Positions 2,037 to 23,338 of a stretch of 24,378 nucleotides of DNA are shown piece by piece. The notes beneath the pieces are model-generated. The model was not told the origin of the DNA. It did not search any database and saw nothing but the letters and a program-made list of their open reading frames with translations. Numbering within the stretch: position 1 is the first letter of the stretch; the number at the start of each line of letters is the position of its first letter. Origin of the DNA: a virus; the IMG/VR virus record IMGVR_UViG_3300032753_000159, positions 1 to 24,378 of that record. One strand, 5' to 3'. Position numbers and translations under genes: made by a program.

Positions 2037-2486
2037 TTATCCTTTATAATTTGCATGTAGAAAGCAATCTTGCTCAGCAAGTCTGCGTGTTAAAATACTA
2101 TCGCTGTACTTCCCAGCTACCATAGACCATTTAAGAAACTCTTTAGAAGCAGCTTCTTTGTTTCCTGCTTTAAGTAACTTTAGAAGAGTCGAACGATTAA
2201 AAGCACCAGTACCTAAGTTAAAAGTAAAGGACACTAGAGCATCAAATTCATTCTGACTAAGGCTTAGTCCTTGTGCATTGACAGCAGTCTCTGCAGCAGT
2301 CACATCTCTTCTAAGAAGTGAAGTAGCTTGTCCCATAGTAATAGGACTTCCTGAAACACAGCCATCATTAGGTACAATGAGGTGACCGTACCCTACTGTC
2401 CATTTACCTGCAGTATCCATGTAAGGCATACTACGGAATCCTTCAAAGTGCTTAATCTGCTCAATACCTGCGTCAGAAGTCTTCAT
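2037..2486 (-). CDS. endolysin, GH24 (T4-type) lysozyme
   Basis: A muramidase of 149 residues that cleaves the MurNAc-GlcNAc bond of peptidoglycan. The GH24 catalytic triad is visible: Glu15 in HFEGFR, Asp24 in YMDTAG and Thr30 in WTVGYGH, with the same spacing as Glu11/Asp20/Thr26 of T4 lysozyme. The later ALVSFTFNLGTGAF segment (about 84-97) is also typical. There is no signal peptide or N-terminal membrane anchor, so export should depend on the holin. The start overlaps the stop of the upstream gene (ATGA). Confidence 0.95.
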   Translation of the reverse strand: MKTSDAGIEQIKHFEGFRSMPYMDTAGKWTVGYGHLIVPNDGCVSGSPITMGQATSLLRRDVTAAETAVNAQGLSLSQNEFDALVSFTFNLGTGAFNRSTLLKLLKAGNKEAASKEFLKWSMVAGKYSDSILTRRLAEQDCFLHANYKG

Positions 2487-2887
2487 AGGTTATAGTAAGG
2501 AAGTTTAAAGTTAGTACCATTGATATTGATAGTAACAAAACCTACAGGGTTAGCTGGTAAAGTATGTGTACCTGCTGTAGCTGTTATTGAAGTAGTATTC
2601 GTTAATGCTACATTACCTGTGATACTTCCTGATACAGCAACACCTGAAAGAGAACCGCCAGTAACATTAATAGCATCTTCATTCTGAGTAGCTAAAGTAC
2701 CAAGACCTAGATTCTGCCTTGCTCCTGCAGCACTGGTAGCACCTGTACCACCTGAAGAAACAGGAGCTACAATGTTACCGCCTTGTGCTTGCTGAATGTA
2801 GTTACCTAAGTTACGGAACCAGTCACGCCAGCTCTGTACTTCACTAATCTTATCTTGTGGTATCGGAGGTAAGTTATTAACGGCCAT
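2483..2887 (-). CDS. short tail-fibre-like virion protein (134 aa)
   Basis: The N-terminus holds a short amphipathic helix (SEVQSWRDWFRNLGNYIQQ, about 15-33). It is followed by a segment common in phage tail fibres, SSGGTGATSAAGARQNLGLG (about 44-63), and then a Ser/Thr/Gly-rich beta stretch ending FKLPYYNL. The fibre-type repeat is strong evidence of a trimeric fibre or spike component, although the protein is far shorter than the long fibres here. It could be a fibre tip or a head/tail decoration. It overlaps the ATP-grasp gene by 11 bases and the endolysin by 4. Confidence 0.7.
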   Translation of the reverse strand: MAVNNLPPIPQDKISEVQSWRDWFRNLGNYIQQAQGGNIVAPVSSGGTGATSAAGARQNLGLGTLATQNEDAINVTGGSLSGVAVSGSITGNVALTNTTSITATAGTHTLPANPVGFVTININGTNFKLPYYNL

Positions 2888-4217
2888 CTTCTACCTCGAA
2901 AGCGTAACCACAGCCTTGTAAATCATCTAAACTATCTTGTACTTTACAGCCAATGTCAAGTCTGTAAGCAATACTGTTTGGAATCTCAATCTTTTTCTTA
3001 ATCTTGCCGTAAACAGACTCACGAGCTTTTTCAATACTATCTCCTAAACCAACAACAGTGCAGCAGTAATCACCAGCAGTAACAAACATGGGAACATTCT
3101 CTTTGAGTTCACCGTCAACCATTGCAGGACCTTTGCCCCACTGAACTTCACAAAGATGTACGTCATTGACTGCATCTTCCATTGTCAAGCCCCAGATAGG
3201 ATAACCAGAGTTTTCCTTCTTAGTTAAGCGACTGTAAGGATAATCAGGAATAGTAACCACAACACCGCAAGCAATCTTGTCGTATACTTTGAATGTGTCT
3301 TTACCATCAATCATGTCAAGCATCCACTGAGCAGGGTCACCTTTGTGTAAAGACATCTGAATGTTAAACAAAGGCCAGCCTGGGCGAGTAGTGAACTCTA
3401 AAGGCCATGCTTTACCTTGTTTGTCAATAATGCAGTTAACATCGATGTAGCCAGTGTAGCCAATACCATGAAGCATATCTTCTAATGGCTTGAGCATCTG
3501 TTCAGCTAATTTAGATTCTTTAGTGTATCGAACAATAGTACCTTGCTCACCAGTAGTAACACCTAGTTCACCATCCATGAGCTTCTTGTGTTCCCAAGAC
3601 TCACAGAAATACTTAGCAAAGCCACAAGCACCAAACCAACCACCGACACCAAACTCAATACCAGGACGGAACTCTTGAAGAATAAACTTACCTTTAAAGG
3701 AATTCTTTTTCTTCCATCGTGTCAACATGTAAAGCATGTCAGCAGCAGACTTAGCTACATAGGATAAAGTCTTATCACCATCACCAATAGGCTTAGATAC
3801 GAATCTACGTGGATTCTCTTTAACGTAAGCAATAGCTTCGTCATAATTATCAAAAGTCTTACTAGGGATAGTAGGAATACCAGCTTTGTTTAGAATCTGT
3901 TCACCGTAGTCACGTTCTTGTTCCCAACGAGTACCAGCTAAGTTTGCACCAAAGATAGGGTAACCTTGTTCACGATAACGCTCTAATCCATGAATGTAAT
4001 AGATGTTATCTGTAACAAAGATTAAGTCAGCCCACTTCATGTGGCTTTCCCATTCAGAGACTCGTTTGATTAAACCGCCATCTCCTACTTCAGAGCGTGA
4101 GCCATCTTTGTTGTGCCTAAGAAACAGCTTAACATCATGTCCAGCTTCTTTGCTTCGTAAGCCAAAGGAAAGACCACAGCCACAGCCTGATGGGTCTATT
4201 ATAAGTACTTTAAGCAT
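2877..4217 (-). CDS. PurD-like ATP-grasp ligase
   Basis: A 446-residue enzyme resembling phosphoribosylamine-glycine ligase (PurD/GARS). Residues 1-100 form a Rossmann-like pre-ATP-grasp domain starting MLKVLIID. The ATP-grasp core spans about 100-300, with VSKPIGDG (Lys142), QEFRPGIEFGVGGW (181-194), GVTTGEQGTIVRY (219-231), GYTGYIDVNCI (253-263) and the metal-ligand-like LEFTTRPGWP (273-282). A C-terminal domain follows. The start at 4217 is preferred to one 30 bases upstream because AAAGG lies just before it and MLKVLIID aligns with the family N-terminus. The PurD glycine-rich start GGGGREH is replaced by PSGCGCG. It overlaps both neighbours, so it is co-expressed with late genes. The substrate is unknown; purine synthesis should not be assumed. 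Confidence 0.82.
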   Translation of the reverse strand: MLKVLIIDPSGCGCGLSFGLRSKEAGHDVKLFLRHNKDGSRSEVGDGGLIKRVSEWESHMKWADLIFVTDNIYYIHGLERYREQGYPIFGANLAGTRWEQERDYGEQILNKAGIPTIPSKTFDNYDEAIAYVKENPRRFVSKPIGDGDKTLSYVAKSAADMLYMLTRWKKKNSFKGKFILQEFRPGIEFGVGGWFGACGFAKYFCESWEHKKLMDGELGVTTGEQGTIVRYTKESKLAEQMLKPLEDMLHGIGYTGYIDVNCIIDKQGKAWPLEFTTRPGWPLFNIQMSLHKGDPAQWMLDMIDGKDTFKVYDKIACGVVVTIPDYPYSRLTKKENSGYPIWGLTMEDAVNDVHLCEVQWGKGPAMVDGELKENVPMFVTAGDYCCTVVGLGDSIEKARESVYGKIKKKIEIPNSIAYRLDIGCKVQDSLDDLQGCGYAFEVEDGR

Positions 4218-4758
4218 GTTTATTACCTTTACTACGATTAGGAGCACGTTGTATTACTTGTAAATTATAATGAACATGTAGACCGCAAACATTTTCACCC
4301 TGTAGCGGAATTATATGGTCTACTTCATAAGGCACTCCTGTTACTGCAGAACACCAAGAAGCTAAGGAATATTCAATTTTAATAGCTTTTAAATCAGCCC
4401 ATTTAGGAGTAGCTTTTAATTTAGTAGCTCTATACTTAGCTCTTTTAGCGTTGTATAGATGTTTATTTTCTTGAAAGTGTTTTTTACTTCTTTGTTTGTT
4501 TTGTTCTGCTAAATTTTCTTTATTTTCTTCGTAGTATTTTTTAGACTGTAAAGACATTTGTTTTTTATTTTTAATCCAATATTGTTTGTTATATTGTTTA
4601 AAATAATCTTTATTATTTTCTTTAAATGTTTTTTGACGAACAGAAATACATTTTTTACATGAACTTGCGTATCCACTTTTTAAATGAGAATCCTTATAAA
4701 ACTCAGTTATTTCTTTTTGAGTTTTACAAGAAGTACATTGTTTAATTAATACATTCAT
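4210..4758 (-). CDS. HNH endonuclease (free-standing, homing-type)
   Basis: The 182-residue protein has an N-terminal zinc module (Cys8, Cys11, Cys34, Cys37), a long Lys/Asn/Glu-rich helical linker (about 40-110) and a C-terminal HNH nuclease: VDHIIPLQG (Asp147, His148), VCGLHV, NLQVI (Asn165) and NRSKGN. The DNA is clearly more AT-rich than its neighbours, with many poly-A/T runs, which suggests recent acquisition. The gene overlaps the ejection protein gene by 4 bases and the ATP-grasp gene by 8, so it sits in the operon without an intron. Probably a selfish or homing nuclease rather than a packaging HNH protein, since no terminase is near. Confidence 0.88.
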   Translation of the reverse strand: MNVLIKQCTSCKTQKEITEFYKDSHLKSGYASSCKKCISVRQKTFKENNKDYFKQYNKQYWIKNKKQMSLQSKKYYEENKENLAEQNKQRSKKHFQENKHLYNAKRAKYRATKLKATPKWADLKAIKIEYSLASWCSAVTGVPYEVDHIIPLQGENVCGLHVHYNLQVIQRAPNRSKGNKHA

Positions 4759-6173
4759 AGGTTTTTCTCTTTAGCGATAGCACCAGCAGTTGTAGCACCA
4801 ATAAATAATCTCATAGCACGACTAATATCTTGAGGTGTCTGAGCACCTTGCATAATGTCAGTAATGTTATTATACACTTTATCAGAGAGTTTCATCTGTT
4901 TTTTAACTTCAGGACCAATAGTTCCCCACATCTTTTTAGCTTCTACAGCCGTAGTGCCTTTTAAGTAACTTAAGAATTCTTGATTAAATACTTTAACTCC
5001 TTCAGGATTCTTACCTAAGTTTTGTAATTGGTCTTTAATAGCAGCTCCACTATTATTAGCAAATAAAGTAGGTAATGTATCTTTAGCTAAAGCAACACGT
5101 TCTGTTTCGTATGCTTTTCGAGCAATTTCTTCAGAACGTTTATTTGTTGTTCTTTCAAGATAGTCATTAAAAGCATCACGGGCTTTTTGAGTTTCGGTGG
5201 TTGTAGCATCTTTACTAAATTTAAGATTTTCAACTACTTTATCGCCTGTTAAAGGATTACCTTTAGCATTTTCAAAAAATTGAGAATAAGCATCTTTTTT
5301 AGACGGAATATCACCATGTAGAGATTTAAATTCAGGAGAATCTAAAAAAGTGCTTGCTTGTTTACCTTTAGGAAAAGCCACATTATCATAAGATTGTTTA
5401 GCATCTTCATATAAAGAATGAGAAATAGACTTACCTTCAGCGACTGGAATATCAGGGTGTGCTTCTTTTAAAACAGCATTTGCTTCATCGATATTTTTAG
5501 TAGAGCCTATGCCTAGTGTTTTTGCTTCTTCTTCTAAAGTTTGTCCTACAGCTTTGTAATCAGCAGGTTTTCTCTTTTCAATAAACTCACCAGCTTTTTT
5601 AACAACTGTACCAGCAAAAGGAATATCCATTGATTTAACAATAGCTTTAGTTGCATATTTAGTAGCATACTCTGCTGCTCTTTTTTCAATCATTTGCCCT
5701 ACTTTGGTAGACAAACCTACACCAGGAGTAACCATACCTGCTGCAAATTGCGTACCTGCACCAAAACCTAAATCTTCAGCTCCTGCTTCTAAAAGACCTG
5801 AAACAGCACCGCCAATAGCTCCTACAGTACCTGTAACAATAGCACCTGGACCTGTTACAAATCCTAAAGCACCTCCAAAAGCACCTCCTGTGACAGCTCC
5901 TGCAGCAGCCCTAGTAGCATAGTCTCCAGCAGTTAATTTACCTGCTTTAGAAGGGTCTCTTCCAAATAATTCTTGAGCTTTAGTACCTGCGTCAACCATG
6001 CTTTGTCTATCTTTAGCAGAAGGAGATAAATGATTGATAATTTCAGTGGGCGTGTATCCTGACTTTTCAGCAGAGTCTTTATCAAACCCTGATTGCTGAG
6101 ACAAGTGAGCAGCTATCTCATCATCTGAATATCCAGCTTTTCTAGCACCTACGACATCAAAATCTACTGGCAT
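4755..6173 (-). CDS. internal virion / DNA ejection protein (472 aa)
   Basis: Two related helical motifs open the protein: VGARKAGYSDDEIAAHLS (8-25) and SAEKSGYTPTEIINHLSP (34-51). This 'GYSxxEIxxHL' type is familiar from phage ejection and internal virion proteins. Residues about 88-132 are a long Gly/Ala-rich hydrophobic stretch with GxxxG spacing that could enter a membrane. The rest is a helical, Lys/Glu/Ala-rich region ending in another hydrophobic patch (FIGATTAGAIA). The protein lies downstream of two other internal-protein genes, as ejection proteins do in podoviruses. The role in forming the DNA channel across the cell envelope is inferred. No enzymatic motif seen. Confidence 0.72.
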   Translation of the reverse strand: MPVDFDVVGARKAGYSDDEIAAHLSQQSGFDKDSAEKSGYTPTEIINHLSPSAKDRQSMVDAGTKAQELFGRDPSKAGKLTAGDYATRAAAGAVTGGAFGGALGFVTGPGAIVTGTVGAIGGAVSGLLEAGAEDLGFGAGTQFAAGMVTPGVGLSTKVGQMIEKRAAEYATKYATKAIVKSMDIPFAGTVVKKAGEFIEKRKPADYKAVGQTLEEEAKTLGIGSTKNIDEANAVLKEAHPDIPVAEGKSISHSLYEDAKQSYDNVAFPKGKQASTFLDSPEFKSLHGDIPSKKDAYSQFFENAKGNPLTGDKVVENLKFSKDATTTETQKARDAFNDYLERTTNKRSEEIARKAYETERVALAKDTLPTLFANNSGAAIKDQLQNLGKNPEGVKVFNQEFLSYLKGTTAVEAKKMWGTIGPEVKKQMKLSDKVYNNITDIMQGAQTPQDISRAMRLFIGATTAGAIAKEKNL

Positions 6174-6182
6174 TGTGTTTCC

Positions 6183-8078
6183 TTAGAATGACAAGTCGCC
6201 TTGACCGAATTGGAACTTTCGTTCTTTACCGCCACTACCAAAAGAACTAAGAGGAGGACGTTCTTTAGTACTATCTACGCCATACTTTTTATCTTGTTCT
6301 TTAGTCTTAGCAGTTTGTGTTTCCATGAAATCTTTAGAAGATTTAGAGAACATCAATGGATATTCTGTCTTATCTAAATTTTCTCTATCAGCTCCAATTC
6401 TACGATTTAAGTTACGTACAGCATCATCTTGACGGTCTTTAAGAACACCAACAAGAGACTGAGGGCTTAGAGATTTATCATAGATACCTACAAACATTTT
6501 TTCTAAGTATTGGTTTATACGCCCACCGCCTGAAGCAGCAGCATCTTGTAAGCCTAAAGTAGCTAGTTCTTTAGCAAGAATAGCAACATCTTCTGTATAC
6601 TTATTATCTTTATTTGTAGAAACGTTATCCAATAAGTTTTTAGTTAAGCCGCCAGCACTTCCCACAAGAGAAGCAATAGTACCTACGGCACTTGGATTCT
6701 TAGCAATTAAATCAGAAACTTTTTCAGTTTGCTTCAATACATCAAAGTCTCCTGCAATAGCAACTTTAGCTTTAGCACCTTGTCCTACTAATTTATTAGG
6801 AGGAATAGCAAACTCTTTACCTACCTGAGCAATATCACCAATCTGCTTTTGAATAGGCATAGACACATCTTCATACATTTGCTCTACGTCAGCCTTTTTA
6901 TTTGCTTTAGCAGTTTCATAAGAAACATCACCAACTTTACCACCACCAGACAAGTTCTTGGTAATCGCTTGCCCAACAGTAACTTTACCTTGTAAATCAG
7001 GATTAGCAGCAATTACTTTATCACTTAATACATCTTTAACAGGAGTATCAGAATCAGCTTTAACTAACTTCTTAGCATCTGTGTCTCCGAATCTCCACCA
7101 TAAGTCTTTATTAGCATTAGTAGGAGATAAACCAGCAGCAGAAATTTCTTTACTAATTTGTTGTTCGTGAATCTTAGCAGCTTTATCTTGTGCGTCTTTA
7201 TTTCCTTTAAGTTTAGAAAACTCAGGTAATGAAGGGTCTTCTTCACGGATTTTATCGTAAGTACCTTTAGTAAGGCCATACTTACCGACAGCAGAAGATG
7301 TTTTACTTTCAGCATTATAAGCAGCATCTCCTTTAAAACCCCCAGATTCAACACCAGCACGAGAAGATAAGAAATCTCCTTCTTCCCCAGATACTGTAGC
7401 AGCAGCTTTTCCACCTTTTTGATACTTAGGAATAACACCAGTATCTCTAGTAATTTTTTCTTGTTCTGTTAAAGGAATACCATTTTTAGCTTTAGCCTCA
7501 ATACGATTTAATTCTACTCTTAAATCTCTTGTATCCATTAAATCTTGACGATTATCAGCAGAGATTGCTACTTGCTGTGCTTGAATATTTTGACTGGCTG
7601 TTCTTGAAACATTAGTCAACAAAGCTTTAGCTTTTTGAACTCCTTCTGGAGTGTCACCAAACTGTTTAACAGCATTTGCTAATTGTAGCTGAGTAGCTTC
7701 ATCAATACCAGCAGCCCCAATAGCAGAAATTAAATCAGATTGTGTAGTAGCCCCTTGAACTAATTGTCCAGCATAAGCAAGCTTTCCTTCTTTTACTTTA
7801 AGGTCATTTAATGCTTGTGTCTGAGTAGCCTCAGAAAGACTACCAGCTTGTTTTTGTAGTTTGTAAGCAGCAGAGTTTAGTCCTTTACTTTGAAGCATCC
7901 CAGCAGCTTGATTAAGAGTAGCTGCTTGTTTAATAGGGTCTTTAATTTCTTCAGGTGTTTGACCTGCGTAAGCTTGTTTAAGGATATCCTGCGAAGCAAC
8001 ATCTTCTTGAACACCTTTCATTGCTTCGTAACCAGAAGCAAAAGATTCAACGGCAGTAGGTCCATATGATGTAGGCAT
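6183..8078 (-). CDS. internal virion protein with lytic transglycosylase-like domain
   Basis: This 631-residue protein is mainly helical and Ala/Gln/Lys-rich. Residues about 234-345 look like an SLT/lysozyme-like domain: a catalytic Glu244 in AGVESGG, SSAVGKYGLT (261-270), and a later helix-rich part containing WWRFGD. It would degrade peptidoglycan locally as the DNA is ejected, like T7 gp16 in role, although the domain here is internal rather than N-terminal. The flanking helical regions probably build the ejection apparatus. It lies 12 bases after the previous internal protein gene and 9 before the next. The transglycosylase call rests on motif spacing and is not certain. Confidence 0.75.
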   Translation of the reverse strand: MPTSYGPTAVESFASGYEAMKGVQEDVASQDILKQAYAGQTPEEIKDPIKQAATLNQAAGMLQSKGLNSAAYKLQKQAGSLSEATQTQALNDLKVKEGKLAYAGQLVQGATTQSDLISAIGAAGIDEATQLQLANAVKQFGDTPEGVQKAKALLTNVSRTASQNIQAQQVAISADNRQDLMDTRDLRVELNRIEAKAKNGIPLTEQEKITRDTGVIPKYQKGGKAAATVSGEEGDFLSSRAGVESGGFKGDAAYNAESKTSSAVGKYGLTKGTYDKIREEDPSLPEFSKLKGNKDAQDKAAKIHEQQISKEISAAGLSPTNANKDLWWRFGDTDAKKLVKADSDTPVKDVLSDKVIAANPDLQGKVTVGQAITKNLSGGGKVGDVSYETAKANKKADVEQMYEDVSMPIQKQIGDIAQVGKEFAIPPNKLVGQGAKAKVAIAGDFDVLKQTEKVSDLIAKNPSAVGTIASLVGSAGGLTKNLLDNVSTNKDNKYTEDVAILAKELATLGLQDAAASGGGRINQYLEKMFVGIYDKSLSPQSLVGVLKDRQDDAVRNLNRRIGADRENLDKTEYPLMFSKSSKDFMETQTAKTKEQDKKYGVDSTKERPPLSSFGSGGKERKFQFGQGDLSF

Positions 8079-8090
8079 AATTATTCCTTA

Positions 8091-8750
8091 TTAATATACT
8101 GGTTGTGATGTATCAGCTATGTACTGAGCTTGTATATCAGCAGGAACTGCTTGATTAGCTCCTTGAGATACTTGAGAAGAAGTATAGCCACCTAAATCAC
8201 TACCAAACCAAGAACTACCAGAGCTTCCTGAACTTCCAAACATACCGCTTAATCCTGAAGACAAACCACCTAGTCCAGAAGTAAGCTGACCAAGACTAGA
8301 AGCTTGTCTACCATAAGCAGCATTAGCAGCTTGTTGCTGAGCTAATCCTGCTGCTGCTGGGTTTTGTGCAGCACCTGATAACTGCATCAAGTTAGCAAGT
8401 TGTGCATTATAGTACTGACCAAAAGTATTTTGCCCTTGTTGCTGAAGAGCGTTAGCTTCTGCACCAGACTGAAGCATACCACTAGCAGCAGCACCTCGTT
8501 GAGACTGTTGTAGTCCTTGTTGAAGCTGTTGTTGATAACCAGGCTGAGCCATAGCTAATGCAGGATTATTTACTAACTGATTAAGCTGAGTAGCTGCTTG
8601 TCCACGGTAAGCACCATATGGGTCGTAAGTACCAGAAGTAGCAGGAACAGAGCCGCCTGAAGAACCTCCTCCACCGCCTCCACCAAACATACTATTTAAT
8701 CCTGAACCTATCCCTACTACGCTTGCTGCTACTCCTAATGATGCACCCAT
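8091..8750 (-). CDS. internal virion / DNA transfer protein, Gly-Gln-Ala-rich (219 aa)
   Basis: It starts with a hydrophobic Gly-rich segment (1-23) and an uninterrupted Gly/Ser linker (24-34). A helical region follows with YRGQAATQLNQLVNNP (48-63), PGYQQQLQQGLQQSQRGAAASGMLQSG in pieces (70-96) and YYNAQLANLMQLSGA (113-127). The 'GYQ..LQQG...R..AA.GML.SG' pattern is common in a family of phage virion proteins encoded beside ejection proteins, comparable in place to T7 gp14 or P22 gp7. The tail is Gly/Ser-rich. Function in DNA ejection is inferred from the composition and from two ejection-type genes downstream. Confidence 0.7.
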   Translation of the reverse strand: MGASLGVAASVVGIGSGLNSMFGGGGGGGSSGGSVPATSGTYDPYGAYRGQAATQLNQLVNNPALAMAQPGYQQQLQQGLQQSQRGAAASGMLQSGAEANALQQQGQNTFGQYYNAQLANLMQLSGAAQNPAAAGLAQQQAANAAYGRQASSLGQLTSGLGGLSSGLSGMFGSSGSSGSSWFGSDLGGYTSSQVSQGANQAVPADIQAQYIADTSQPVY

Positions 8751-8760
8751 GGTGATGTCC

Positions 8761-9207
8761 TTATATCATTTTGCTATACAGTTTTTCGATAAACGTATAA
8801 CCTAAATATTCAAATAACTTAGAATTATCTAAATGTACTTTTGTGCTATACATAACACGATGTACACCGATTGATTTTAAATACTGTTCAGCAAACTGAA
8901 ACAGTCGTATTCCAACCCTACCTTTACGTTCCTGTTTAGTAACGTAGTAAATATCTTCCACAGCAGTGATGCAAGATTTATAATGCAAATGTGGAGTAAT
9001 AACAAATATAATATAACCTATTAGGACACCATCTTTACGACAAGTAATTACTTTAGATAATCCTAGTTCTTCTAGTTTAAAATAAGACTCGTAATCTGGT
9101 TCTAATGGTACTGTCTTTGTGACAGAGAGTTCAGCATAATGGTCATCATAGTGCTCCTTCATCTCTTCAATGCAATTTGAATAAGCTTCTACTTGATATG
9201 TAACCAT
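8761..9207 (-). CDS. GNAT-family N-acetyltransferase
   Basis: A 148-residue protein with the GNAT fold signature: a central strand VLIGYIIFVI (61-70), an acceptor-side strand CITAVEDIYYVT (79-90), the acetyl-CoA pyrophosphate loop region QERKGRVGIRLF (92-103) leading into helix FAEQYLKSIG, and the late NSKLFEYLGYTF segment (128-139). AGGAGC from the end of the tail hub gene serves as its ribosome site. It lies between tail and ejection genes, where podoviruses often carry an acetyltransferase of unknown target. The substrate (a virion protein, a host protein or a small molecule) cannot be read from the sequence. Confidence 0.85.
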   Translation of the reverse strand: MVTYQVEAYSNCIEEMKEHYDDHYAELSVTKTVPLEPDYESYFKLEELGLSKVITCRKDGVLIGYIIFVITPHLHYKSCITAVEDIYYVTKQERKGRVGIRLFQFAEQYLKSIGVHRVMYSTKVHLDNSKLFEYLGYTFIEKLYSKMI

Positions 9208-9210
9208 TTT

Positions 9211-11286
9211 CTAGCTCCTGTATACTGTCGGTGAAACGCCTCCACCTTCTAATTCCCCAATTTCAAAATCAACTTCAGCAGCATCTAAACGTAATGGCTG
9301 ATTATCTGTACAGAGGAATTCCCAAGCTCTGCGTCTTCCTTGTCCTGTTTGATAAATCTGAGGACGAGACGCATTAAGGTTTACAGTACGGTAAGGAGAC
9401 CATGATTTATAATCATCATCAGTGTGGCGAATATTCATTATAGCAGGTTGTTTATCTCCTACAATTTCCACCCTATTGTAAAACTTACGCTTAGTAGTTC
9501 CATTATCAACAATGTCTGTAACAGCTCGATAATAGATTGGAGCACCTGCATCATTATAGTACGTATCTGACATAACGTAAATAGCACCTGTGTCATCATC
9601 TAAAAGATAGTAAGATAAACCATCTCCTGAGAAATAACTAGGTCTGAAATACTGTTCACCATAGATACCAGGAGCACCTGAGTTTTCATCACCCTTAGCC
9701 CACATAGTCCATTGATACCACATCTTTTCAGATACGTCGTATACTATTGTAACATTTAAATCGTGTAAAGTCAAGACATAAAATGGATGACCGTTGTATC
9801 TTAAAGTATAGGCTTTTACGTCTTTTAAGTTACTATTATTGAGAACACGGTCAATATAGACAGTAGAAAGCTTAACTGGAGATACCCCATCTACACCATA
9901 TACACCAGTACCTGTAGTCTTAGAAATACCAACAAATAACACAGTATTCTCAAAACTAACAATAGAATCACCATTAGCACAACCTACTTCAAATTTGTAA
10001 GAAGGAGCAGCAGCTAAGGGAGAACCTGGGAATGTACCATAATCATAGAAGAAGTCAGTAGACCATTGTCCATGAGCTAGGATATAGTTTAAATGCTTAG
10101 AAATACCTACTAAGTTATCTGGTTCAGATTCTGCTGTAACATAGTCTAAAGCATTCCAATGAGTAGGGTCTCCTACATCACAGTTGTACAATCTACCTGT
10201 TACAGTGCCTACAACAATGTAAGAATCTAAGAATACTACTCCAGGGACTAAAGGACCTGCAGGGAAGCCTTGTAATAACGCTGTAGCAGTGGCTCCAGAG
10301 CCTCCTGTAGCCGTAAAAGTACCTGTCCATTGAATAACAGCAGTACCATCTAAACCAACTCCTCCAGTGCCTGTTAAACTGACAAACTGAACAGTAGCTG
10401 TGCCATCTGGTCCCGACCCTGAAGTAAAAGTAGGTTCAGAAGCTCCTGTAGTGCCTGCTGCTGTACATACATACAGATAACCAGAAGAAGTTACAAATTC
10501 TTGTCCTCTGAGAATATTCCAGCCTGATGCCCAAGCAGGGGCTACATCAGAGTTATTTATAGTAGGTTGGATTATTCCTGTAGTACCTGCTGATAAAACT
10601 ACATAAGAATTACTACTAGTAGTATAAGTAGCTCCTGTGCCTTTAAATGTGCTAGCTGTCCAAGTGTAGGTCGTAGCCCCTGAATCACCAATAGTAACAA
10701 CTAAGGTATCTGAAGATGTGTAACCTGAGCCACCATTAGTAATTGTAATTCCTGTAACTACACCACCTGTAGTCTGTACAGTACCTGTGGCTGTTGTACC
10801 GCCTCCAGAAGGAGCTGAGAAGGTAACGTATGGGGTTATGTAGCCTGTACCGCCAGTAAGGATAGTAGTTGTTACAATAGTATCATCTTTAATCTGACTA
10901 AATGCTCCAGTAGAGCCATTTACTAAATAACCATTAGTTTGATTATGTAGGAATAAGTAATTACTGTCTAATGTCTGAACAAAGTAACAAGTCACAATAG
11001 GACCTGTTAAAGTACCGACTACTGTAGAAGTATATGTTGTAGGGTCTACTTTATATAAGACATTATTAATAACAAGATACAACAAACCTTTAAATAGATA
11101 AATACCTTGACCATCTCCAGCAGGTAAAGCAGGAGTTATTGTAGGTGTTATTAATCCAGGACGTTTAATAAACTCACGCATTTGATTGCGTGTTTCAAAG
11201 TAACCATTGACGCACTTAGAGTCTGTGTTTAATCTACCATCCCTTGTTTCTACAGGCTGAGATAATGGAATTCTTTGAATTGGCAT
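9211..11286 (-). CDS. P22 gp10-like tail hub / packaged-DNA stabilisation protein with inserted repeats
   Basis: Both ends of this 691-residue protein match the style of P22 gp10 (tail needle adaptor that closes the portal exit): MPIQRIPL at the N-terminus, a VNGYFE/KRPGL segment (26-45), then SEPDNLVGISKHLNYILAHG (387-406) with an FDYG-like follow-up, and a C-terminal LRLDAAEVDFEIGELEGG. P22 gp10 is about 470 residues; the extra length is an insertion at about 137-342 made of Gly/Thr-rich beta modules, including two GTTG...EP-type units (233-241, 278-288) and ITNGGSGYT (182-190). The gene follows a gp4-like gene by one base, as expected for a P22-type tail. Homology is from memory. Confidence 0.78.
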   Translation of the reverse strand: MPIQRIPLSQPVETRDGRLNTDSKCVNGYFETRNQMREFIKRPGLITPTITPALPAGDGQGIYLFKGLLYLVINNVLYKVDPTTYTSTVVGTLTGPIVTCYFVQTLDSNYLFLHNQTNGYLVNGSTGAFSQIKDDTIVTTTILTGGTGYITPYVTFSAPSGGGTTATGTVQTTGGVVTGITITNGGSGYTSSDTLVVTIGDSGATTYTWTASTFKGTGATYTTSSNSYVVLSAGTTGIIQPTINNSDVAPAWASGWNILRGQEFVTSSGYLYVCTAAGTTGASEPTFTSGSGPDGTATVQFVSLTGTGGVGLDGTAVIQWTGTFTATGGSGATATALLQGFPAGPLVPGVVFLDSYIVVGTVTGRLYNCDVGDPTHWNALDYVTAESEPDNLVGISKHLNYILAHGQWSTDFFYDYGTFPGSPLAAAPSYKFEVGCANGDSIVSFENTVLFVGISKTTGTGVYGVDGVSPVKLSTVYIDRVLNNSNLKDVKAYTLRYNGHPFYVLTLHDLNVTIVYDVSEKMWYQWTMWAKGDENSGAPGIYGEQYFRPSYFSGDGLSYYLLDDDTGAIYVMSDTYYNDAGAPIYYRAVTDIVDNGTTKRKFYNRVEIVGDKQPAIMNIRHTDDDYKSWSPYRTVNLNASRPQIYQTGQGRRRAWEFLCTDNQPLRLDAAEVDFEIGELEGGGVSPTVYRS

Positions 11287-23002: not shown

Positions 23003-23338
23003 TTAATCAAGCAAATAGTTGATAGCTTCTGCAAGGAATTTAGGATTATCTCTAAAGTTGCCTAAACCTTGATTACATCCCATACACAACAAACCACGAA
23101 CTTTCTTAGTAGTATGGCAATGGTCTACTGCCAGATTTCTAGGTTGCTTCGTTCTGTTATCTATGACTGTTTCAGGATTTTTGCATATCTTACAAACACC
23201 GTTTTGATTTTCTAACATTTCGTTGTACTGTTCTAAAGTAATGCCAAAACTTTTCTTTAAATCAGTACTTCTTACTCTATCAGGATGTCTTAAACGGTAT
23301 TGCTTTTGATACGCAGCAGCTTTAGCCTTTTTATCCAT
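23003..23338 (-). CDS. endonuclease VII-like HNH nuclease
   Basis: A 111-residue protein with the recombination endonuclease VII family signature: zinc ligands Cys49/Cys52 (VCKICKN), catalytic VDHCH (72-75), Cys85/Cys88 and Asn89 in CMGCNQGLGNF. The basic N-terminal 30 residues (KKAKAAAYQKQYRLRHPDR) probably bind DNA. It is inserted just after the capsid gene, with about 27 bases before it and the promoter region behind it. Such free-standing genes often act as homing endonucleases; a Holliday-junction role as in T4 gp49 is the alternative. Confidence 0.9.
   Translation of the reverse strand: MDKKAKAAAYQKQYRLRHPDRVRSTDLKKSFGITLEQYNEMLENQNGVCKICKNPETVIDNRTKQPRNLAVDHCHTTKKVRGLLCMGCNQGLGNFRDNPKFLAEAINYLLD

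Follow-up and report, generated by a model that had tools for sequence, protein, structure and literature searches.

A PurD-fold ATP-grasp protein in a phage virion operon belongs to a separate family of probable ligases shared with archaea and some bacteria

Among the known proteins closest to the enzyme analysed here are two from haloarchaea. Brown et al. (2011) judged two haloarchaeal 'extra PurD-like' proteins, Hlac_1553 and rrnAC0307, not to be GAR synthetases (GARS); both lack GARS_N, have a divergent P-loop and have lost the Asp of R[LF]GDPE (PMC3261824). That paper names the two proteins and gives the verdict 'not GARS', and it covers no phage branch, distribution or neighbours. In phages, ATP-grasp peptide ligases of the R2K/CDC123 type and others, some of them linked to GNAT genes, have been proposed to modify proteins (PMC4431377, PMC7824862). 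The ligase that we describe is likewise a phage ATP-grasp protein, but it belongs to a different ATP-grasp clade from the R2K/CDC123-type enzymes. Its clade shows the same losses as the two haloarchaeal proteins and, like them, stands apart from PurD; by genus and features, we infer that Hlac_1553 and rrnAC0307 belong to this clade, which includes Halorubrum and Haloarcula genes. In the literature that we searched on PurD-like proteins and ATP-grasp virion enzymes of phages, the clade is not described, and the phage branch and the neighbours of the 'not GARS' paralogue look unreported.

The window, a stretch of 24,378 nucleotides of viral DNA (IMG/VR record IMGVR_UViG_3300032753_000159), encodes the ligase (P0001) on its minus strand at positions 2877-4217. 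The reading frame starts with ATG, runs for 446 codons plus the stop and contains no internal stop. A first-pass annotation made from the sequence had described an intact-looking, full-length ATP-grasp enzyme here, and all the motifs that it cited are present: K142, QEFRPGIEFG, GVTTGEQGT and LEFTTR, with PSGCGCG replacing the G-rich loop of PurD. Comparison with six relatives gave dN/dS values of 0.05-0.11, synonymous change far exceeding replacement change. Because of this selection, and because the gene is carried by more than 500 viral contigs, it is no chance reading frame.

The same annotation had placed the ligase in the virion operon, flanked by an HNH gene and a short fibre-like gene, and both neighbours are confirmed. 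The HNH/endonuclease VII-like gene (4210-4758, minus strand) lies upstream, between the ejection gene and the ligase, and overlaps the latter by 8 bp; since it is missing from the corresponding spot in two relatives (G003 and G005), we regard it as a local insertion. A second HNH/endonuclease VII-type gene is found in the virion operon at 23003-23338, and relatives carry similar genes elsewhere. Further upstream, all on the minus strand, are the last ejection/internal-virion-like gene (4755-6173), recognized by its position and by counterparts immediately before the ligase in relatives; an internal-virion-like gene of cluster 2 (6183-8078), which in relatives stands two or three genes ahead of the ligase; a DNA-ejection-like gene of cluster 3 (8091-8750; phrog_598, E 0.0036); and a GNAT acetyltransferase gene (8761-9207) in the slot between the head-closure and ejection genes. 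PHROG and Pfam searches returned no match for the products of 4755-6173 and 6183-8078. The head-closure Hc3 gene (9211-11286) lies upstream of the GNAT gene. On the other side, the fibre-like gene (2483-2887, minus strand; PHROG tail fibre, E 1e-5) overlaps the downstream end of the ligase by 11 bp and encodes a short protein with an N-terminal PPIP...WRDWF motif, after which a phage lysozyme gene (2037-2486, minus strand; PF00959, E 6e-37) ends the operon. Judged from gene order alone, the ligase would be expressed late, with the virion genes.

Two further features were seen at this end of the operon. Just after the lysozyme gene, the minus strand encodes a lysine-rich protein of 50-odd residues (MPLK...; 1869-2033), and in a sister group (L191, L193, L206 and others) a lysine-rich protein of 50-odd residues is encoded directly before the ligase; such a small protein is a possible candidate substrate. 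A strong stem-loop with a T tail (1238-1258) separates the minus-strand virion operon from the plus-strand genes on its left.

Sequence searches relate the ligase to PurD at a distance. In Pfam, GARS_A matched with 32.2 bits (cut-off 27), GARS_C reached 27.3 bits (below its cut-off of 34.8) and GARS_N gave no match. The purD profile TIGR00877 scored 94.6 bits over residues 61-426, under the PurD threshold of 288; cellular paralogues scored 84-124 bits and the true PurDs of their carriers 332-555. Sequence matches in the PDB were to PurD without exception, and a PHROG search with the ligase matched no family. An AlphaFold2 model built from a 53-sequence alignment (pLDDT 95.5, pTM 0.93) has the three-domain PurD fold and superposes on all solved PurDs with Z scores of 31.7-35.6 (376-394 aligned residues, rmsd 3.1-4.3), compared with 24.5 for the next fold family, PurK, and about 24 for PurT, so the fold is that of PurD from end to end. 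PurK, PurT, PylC and biotin carboxylase share the fold class and acyl-phosphate chemistry (Z 22-24.5), but they are more distant from the ligase than PurD is and act on other substrates. Among the viral structures of BFVD there was no close match, the best TM-score being about 0.4 by query length. In a tree of 109 sequences, comprising 15 PurDs (including the true PurDs of several carrier cells), 37 phage members and 57 cell members, PurD is split from all phage and cellular relatives of the ligase with support 100 and a branch of 0.76+1.87. The window ligase is thus no PurD; it is a member of a separate sister family common to archaea and some bacteria.

We mapped the active site from the residues given for A. 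aeolicus PurD, whose glycine pocket is formed by D212, R287 and E292 (PMC8880213), and counted residues across the 15 PurDs and the 94 clade members. What the clade shares with PurD (TIGR00877; PDB 2yw2, 2xcl, 1gso) is the whole fold, the ATP-grasp catalytic residues, the carboxylate arginine and the C-terminal RxDIG. E99, K142, K211, E274, R278, R419 and D421 are invariant in 94/94 members, and E188 is invariant in the 53-row alignment; these invariant Lys and Glu nucleotide and metal residues, with GARS_A above its gathering cut-off, identify an ATP-grasp enzyme. R278 corresponds to PurD R287, which binds the carboxylate of glycine and is kept in all 94.

Unlike PurD, the clade lacks GGREH, VGPExPL, GDPE and the SPxP stretch. 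None of the 94 members has the R and H of the GxGGREHA loop or the PE of VGPExPL, residues that vary little or not at all among the 15 PurDs, and the D of GDPE is lost in 93. R287 is the only residue of the glycine pocket to survive: D212 has become E throughout, and E292, at the glycine-amine end, is missing from every member. Other uniform changes are K103 to R, E185 to Q (93/94), the N of EFN to T, and TGGMG to TGE(M/Q)G, the second G being replaced by E in 92/94. D70 is nearly invariant in the clade at a position where PurD binds phosphoribosylamine. The first-pass annotation had suspected that the protein was no ordinary PurD and that its substrate had changed, a view well supported by the residues, the profile score and the tree: a PurD fold is predicted, and its GARS substrate ends have been rebuilt. 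It had named the retention of every PurD substrate residue as a sign against this view, and such retention is seen in none of the 94 members. The N-terminal loop that it singled out as the sign of a changed substrate is indeed altered; several other changes accompany it, and CGCG itself is restricted to the phage subgroup of the window.

The clade-wide replacement of a Mg-ligand Asn by Thr possibly weakens catalysis; PurK and PurT tolerate changes of this kind. Inteins tend toward conserved active sites, and in the ligases of three divergent phages (L258:3024-5276, L259:9989-11956 and L261:4472-6727) we observed an intein with a LAGLIDADG-like domain, inserted at GPN|C...GN|SGE, exactly at the TGE motif. 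This position supports the importance of the changed TGE loop. In another contig, a large reading frame that looks terminase-like by eye (L253:1356-3914) also has an apparent intein-like stretch (CVGGEQEIWDPV...).

Scans with the window protein and mixed alignments found the family in more than 500 viral contigs and at no fewer than 538 cellular loci. The phage lineage of the window gene is very common in lake water. Outside viruses, clade members occur in haloarchaea, DPANN archaea, Patescibacteria and a few other bacteria. Counting in each sample the genome on which it was centred, the paralogue was present in 36/97 haloarchaeal, 26/194 DPANN, 9/240 Patescibacterial, 5/193 Omnitrophota and 1/299 Pseudomonadota genomes, the last being that central genome alone. 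Half-length pieces of the ligase (about residues 1-205 and 200-434) were seen in four haloarchaeal genomes (G948, G957, G980 and G981), some near full copies; they may be split genes, remnants or interrupted genes. The cellular copies, one plasmid copy (L090) aside, form one clade with support 100. This clade was nested within phage diversity in the first tree; once L090, a long plasmid row, and other rows were removed, a single phage clade was not rejected (p-AU 0.50). The family has possibly been exchanged between phages and archaea or bacteria.

We examined 211 viral loci, in which ejection-type genes precede the ligase; 151 of them contain the cluster of the fibre-like gene, and in 138 of these that gene occupies the +1 position. 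Even the most divergent phage copies, from other lineages, lie among structural genes. The comparison of phage neighbourhoods proposed by the first-pass annotation thus finds the ligase travelling with virion genes. Four genes upstream of it, the slot that separates Hc3 from the ejection genes is a hot spot of small modifying enzymes, holding GNATs of several unrelated clusters (some labelled by eye) as well as cupin and 2OG-oxygenase-like genes (by eye). In ten loci (L013, L014, L021, L022, L024, L030 and L069-L072) a cupin-SET fusion stands in the place of the GNAT. A strict pairing of ligase and GNAT in phages was rejected, as the slot may instead hold cupin-SET, cupin and 2OG-oxygenase-like or fibre-like genes, or be empty. 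One phage locus without the ligase (L317) has a GNAT-like gene (by eye) in the same slot, and the proximity of GNAT in the phage operon may have nothing to do with the ligase.

Around the haloarchaeal copies examined, which stand alone, and around most cellular copies, no conserved neighbours were found. In DPANN archaea, Patescibacteria and others, GNAT, Acetyltransf_6 (FemAB/GNAT-like) and SET-domain genes recur. A GNAT gene lies directly downstream of the ligase in four loci, with gaps of 2-17 bp. With expectations derived from every SET and Acetyltransf_6 gene in 43 carrier genomes, we counted, no more than 5 kb from the ligase, six SET genes (0.27 expected; P about 4e-7) and six Acetyltransf_6 genes (0.26 expected; P about 3e-7). 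These P values ignore kinship and, related genomes not being independent, overstate the significance. The link of GNAT and SET to the ligase comes from a minority of cellular loci. The copy on a Sphingomonas plasmid is broken into two reading frames and adjoins a SET gene.

Taken from its sequence and setting, the ligase is probably an active carboxylate-amine ligase with non-GARS substrates, serving as an accessory enzyme in the virion operon. The intact ATP-grasp residues would bind Mg-ATP, and the conserved R278 would anchor a carboxylate substrate distinct from glycine, to be activated as an acyl-phosphate. The rebuilt N-terminal domain would take in an amine different from phosphoribosylamine, whose attack would yield an amide. 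The phage would make this accessory enzyme together with its virion and lysis genes. Its likely use would be to conjugate an amine-bearing target, either a lysine side chain belonging to a protein of the virion or the host, or a molecule resembling a polyamine. Such a target falls within the biochemical sphere of the GNAT/FemAB-type acyltransferases and SET proteins encoded next to the cellular copies and in the upstream slot of phages.

How far the product may instead be a small conjugate (a polyamine-acid, an amino-acid amide or a dipeptide-like compound), produced inside the infected cell to serve as metabolite or protectant, can be judged from two Patescibacterial loci. In one (L418, genome G257) the ligase lies among an Orn/DAP/Arg decarboxylase gene, two saccharopine-dehydrogenase-like genes, an FMN reductase gene, an M29 peptidase gene and a SET gene; in the other (L170:7597-9993) it is directly preceded by the gene for a 798-residue double ATP-grasp protein (L-amino-acid-ligase-like plus Ddl-like). 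These contexts, the use of small molecules by PurD-fold relatives and the near-invariance of D70 at the phosphoribosylamine site make a small product a serious contender, albeit at somewhat under even chances: both contexts are single cases, and such a product leaves the strict residence of the gene among phage virion genes unexplained. A protein-lysine target, taken alone, is tentative to about the same degree, and we judge protein and small-molecule targets about equally probable. Identifying the amine with a lysine or polyamine-type group is speculative; we propose it because the GNAT and SET neighbours act on such amines, because D70 is nearly invariant and because of the decarboxylase-containing cluster.

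It is far less probable that the family comprises diverged but genuine GAR synthetases, auxiliary metabolic genes (AMGs) that raise purine supply during phage DNA replication. An ocean virome survey did report a virus-enriched 'phosphoribosylamine-glycine ligase', possibly of this clade, as a purine AMG (PMC11360552), and the full-length PurD fold and the Pfam and TIGR matches would fit. Both substrate sites are rebuilt in 94/94 members, though, with the loss of GGREH's R and H, of the PE pair and of the glycine-amine Glu; the purD profile score falls far below its cut-off, and the gene sits in a virion operon. The cells that carry the paralogue tell the same way. A separate, full-scoring PurD was present in 8 of 10 carrier genomes checked, and the DPANN/CPR carriers, some of whose genomes may be incomplete, had a PurD over the cut-off in 9/33 cases and none over it in 24/33, one of these 24 falling just under; one carrier (G012) had neither PurD nor PurF over the cut-off. 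Because most carriers own a separate PurD or lack one over the cut-off, the paralogue is not the GAR synthetase of the cell. A near-complete relative of the window phage (G005), whose 44-kb contig carries, as read by eye, replication genes of the T7 type and a ribonucleotide reductase of class II, had no purine gene that could be recognized on inspection of its reading frames. On residues, profile score, tree and co-occurrence, we rejected an ordinary PurD.

Equally improbable is a protein that has lost catalysis and persists as a factor in virion structure or assembly. Such a role would suit a gene that, in most relatives, is flanked by ejection and fibre genes; against it stand the invariance of all ATP-grasp catalytic positions in 94 sequences whose identity falls to about 30%, the stand-alone copies in cells, and relatives that have the same virion genes and no ligase. 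When we compared related Hc3 loci extending 7.5 kb or more downstream, 14 carried the ligase and four informative ones lacked it (L317, L368, L381 and L388; a fifth, L374, was excluded because its contig stops within the ejection gene). In these four the ejection gene runs directly into the same fibre gene, leaving an empty site. Since these relatives keep both the fibre and the ejection genes, the ligase is a long-kept accessory outside the minimal virion machinery, and on the same grounds we rejected an obligatory fibre-maturation ligase. Attachment of an amino acid or amine to a base of the phage DNA or its nucleotides, an option named by the first-pass annotation and suggested by the amide bonds that ATP-grasp enzymes can form on nucleotides in purine synthesis, is very doubtful and was rejected, as inspection of the reading frames recognized no base-hypermodification gene in the near-complete 44-kb relative, the ligase never adjoins replication genes in the loci examined and its N domain lacks the phosphoribosylamine loops.

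We return, then, to an accessory carboxylate-amine ligase with substrates other than those of GARS. In a narrower form, the ligase, the GNAT/FemAB-type acyltransferases and SET proteins would together attach an acid to protein lysines, and phages would use this to modify virion or injected proteins; we consider this version unlikely, yet if it were true, it would represent a new kind of post-translational conjugation by a widespread, unrecognized ligase family. Freshwater phages and archaea of reduced genome size hold many members of the family, which has a confident model and, in TGE(M/Q)GT and EFTxR(P/F)G(W/Y)P, clear signatures that set it apart from PurD. Being named after a purine enzyme, its genes can be counted as nucleotide metabolism in virome surveys; going by those signatures, the family should stay out of purine-metabolism counts in virome catalogues. 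Its partner genes hint at substrates, and thereby open a long-ignored 'not GARS' paralogue to direct test.
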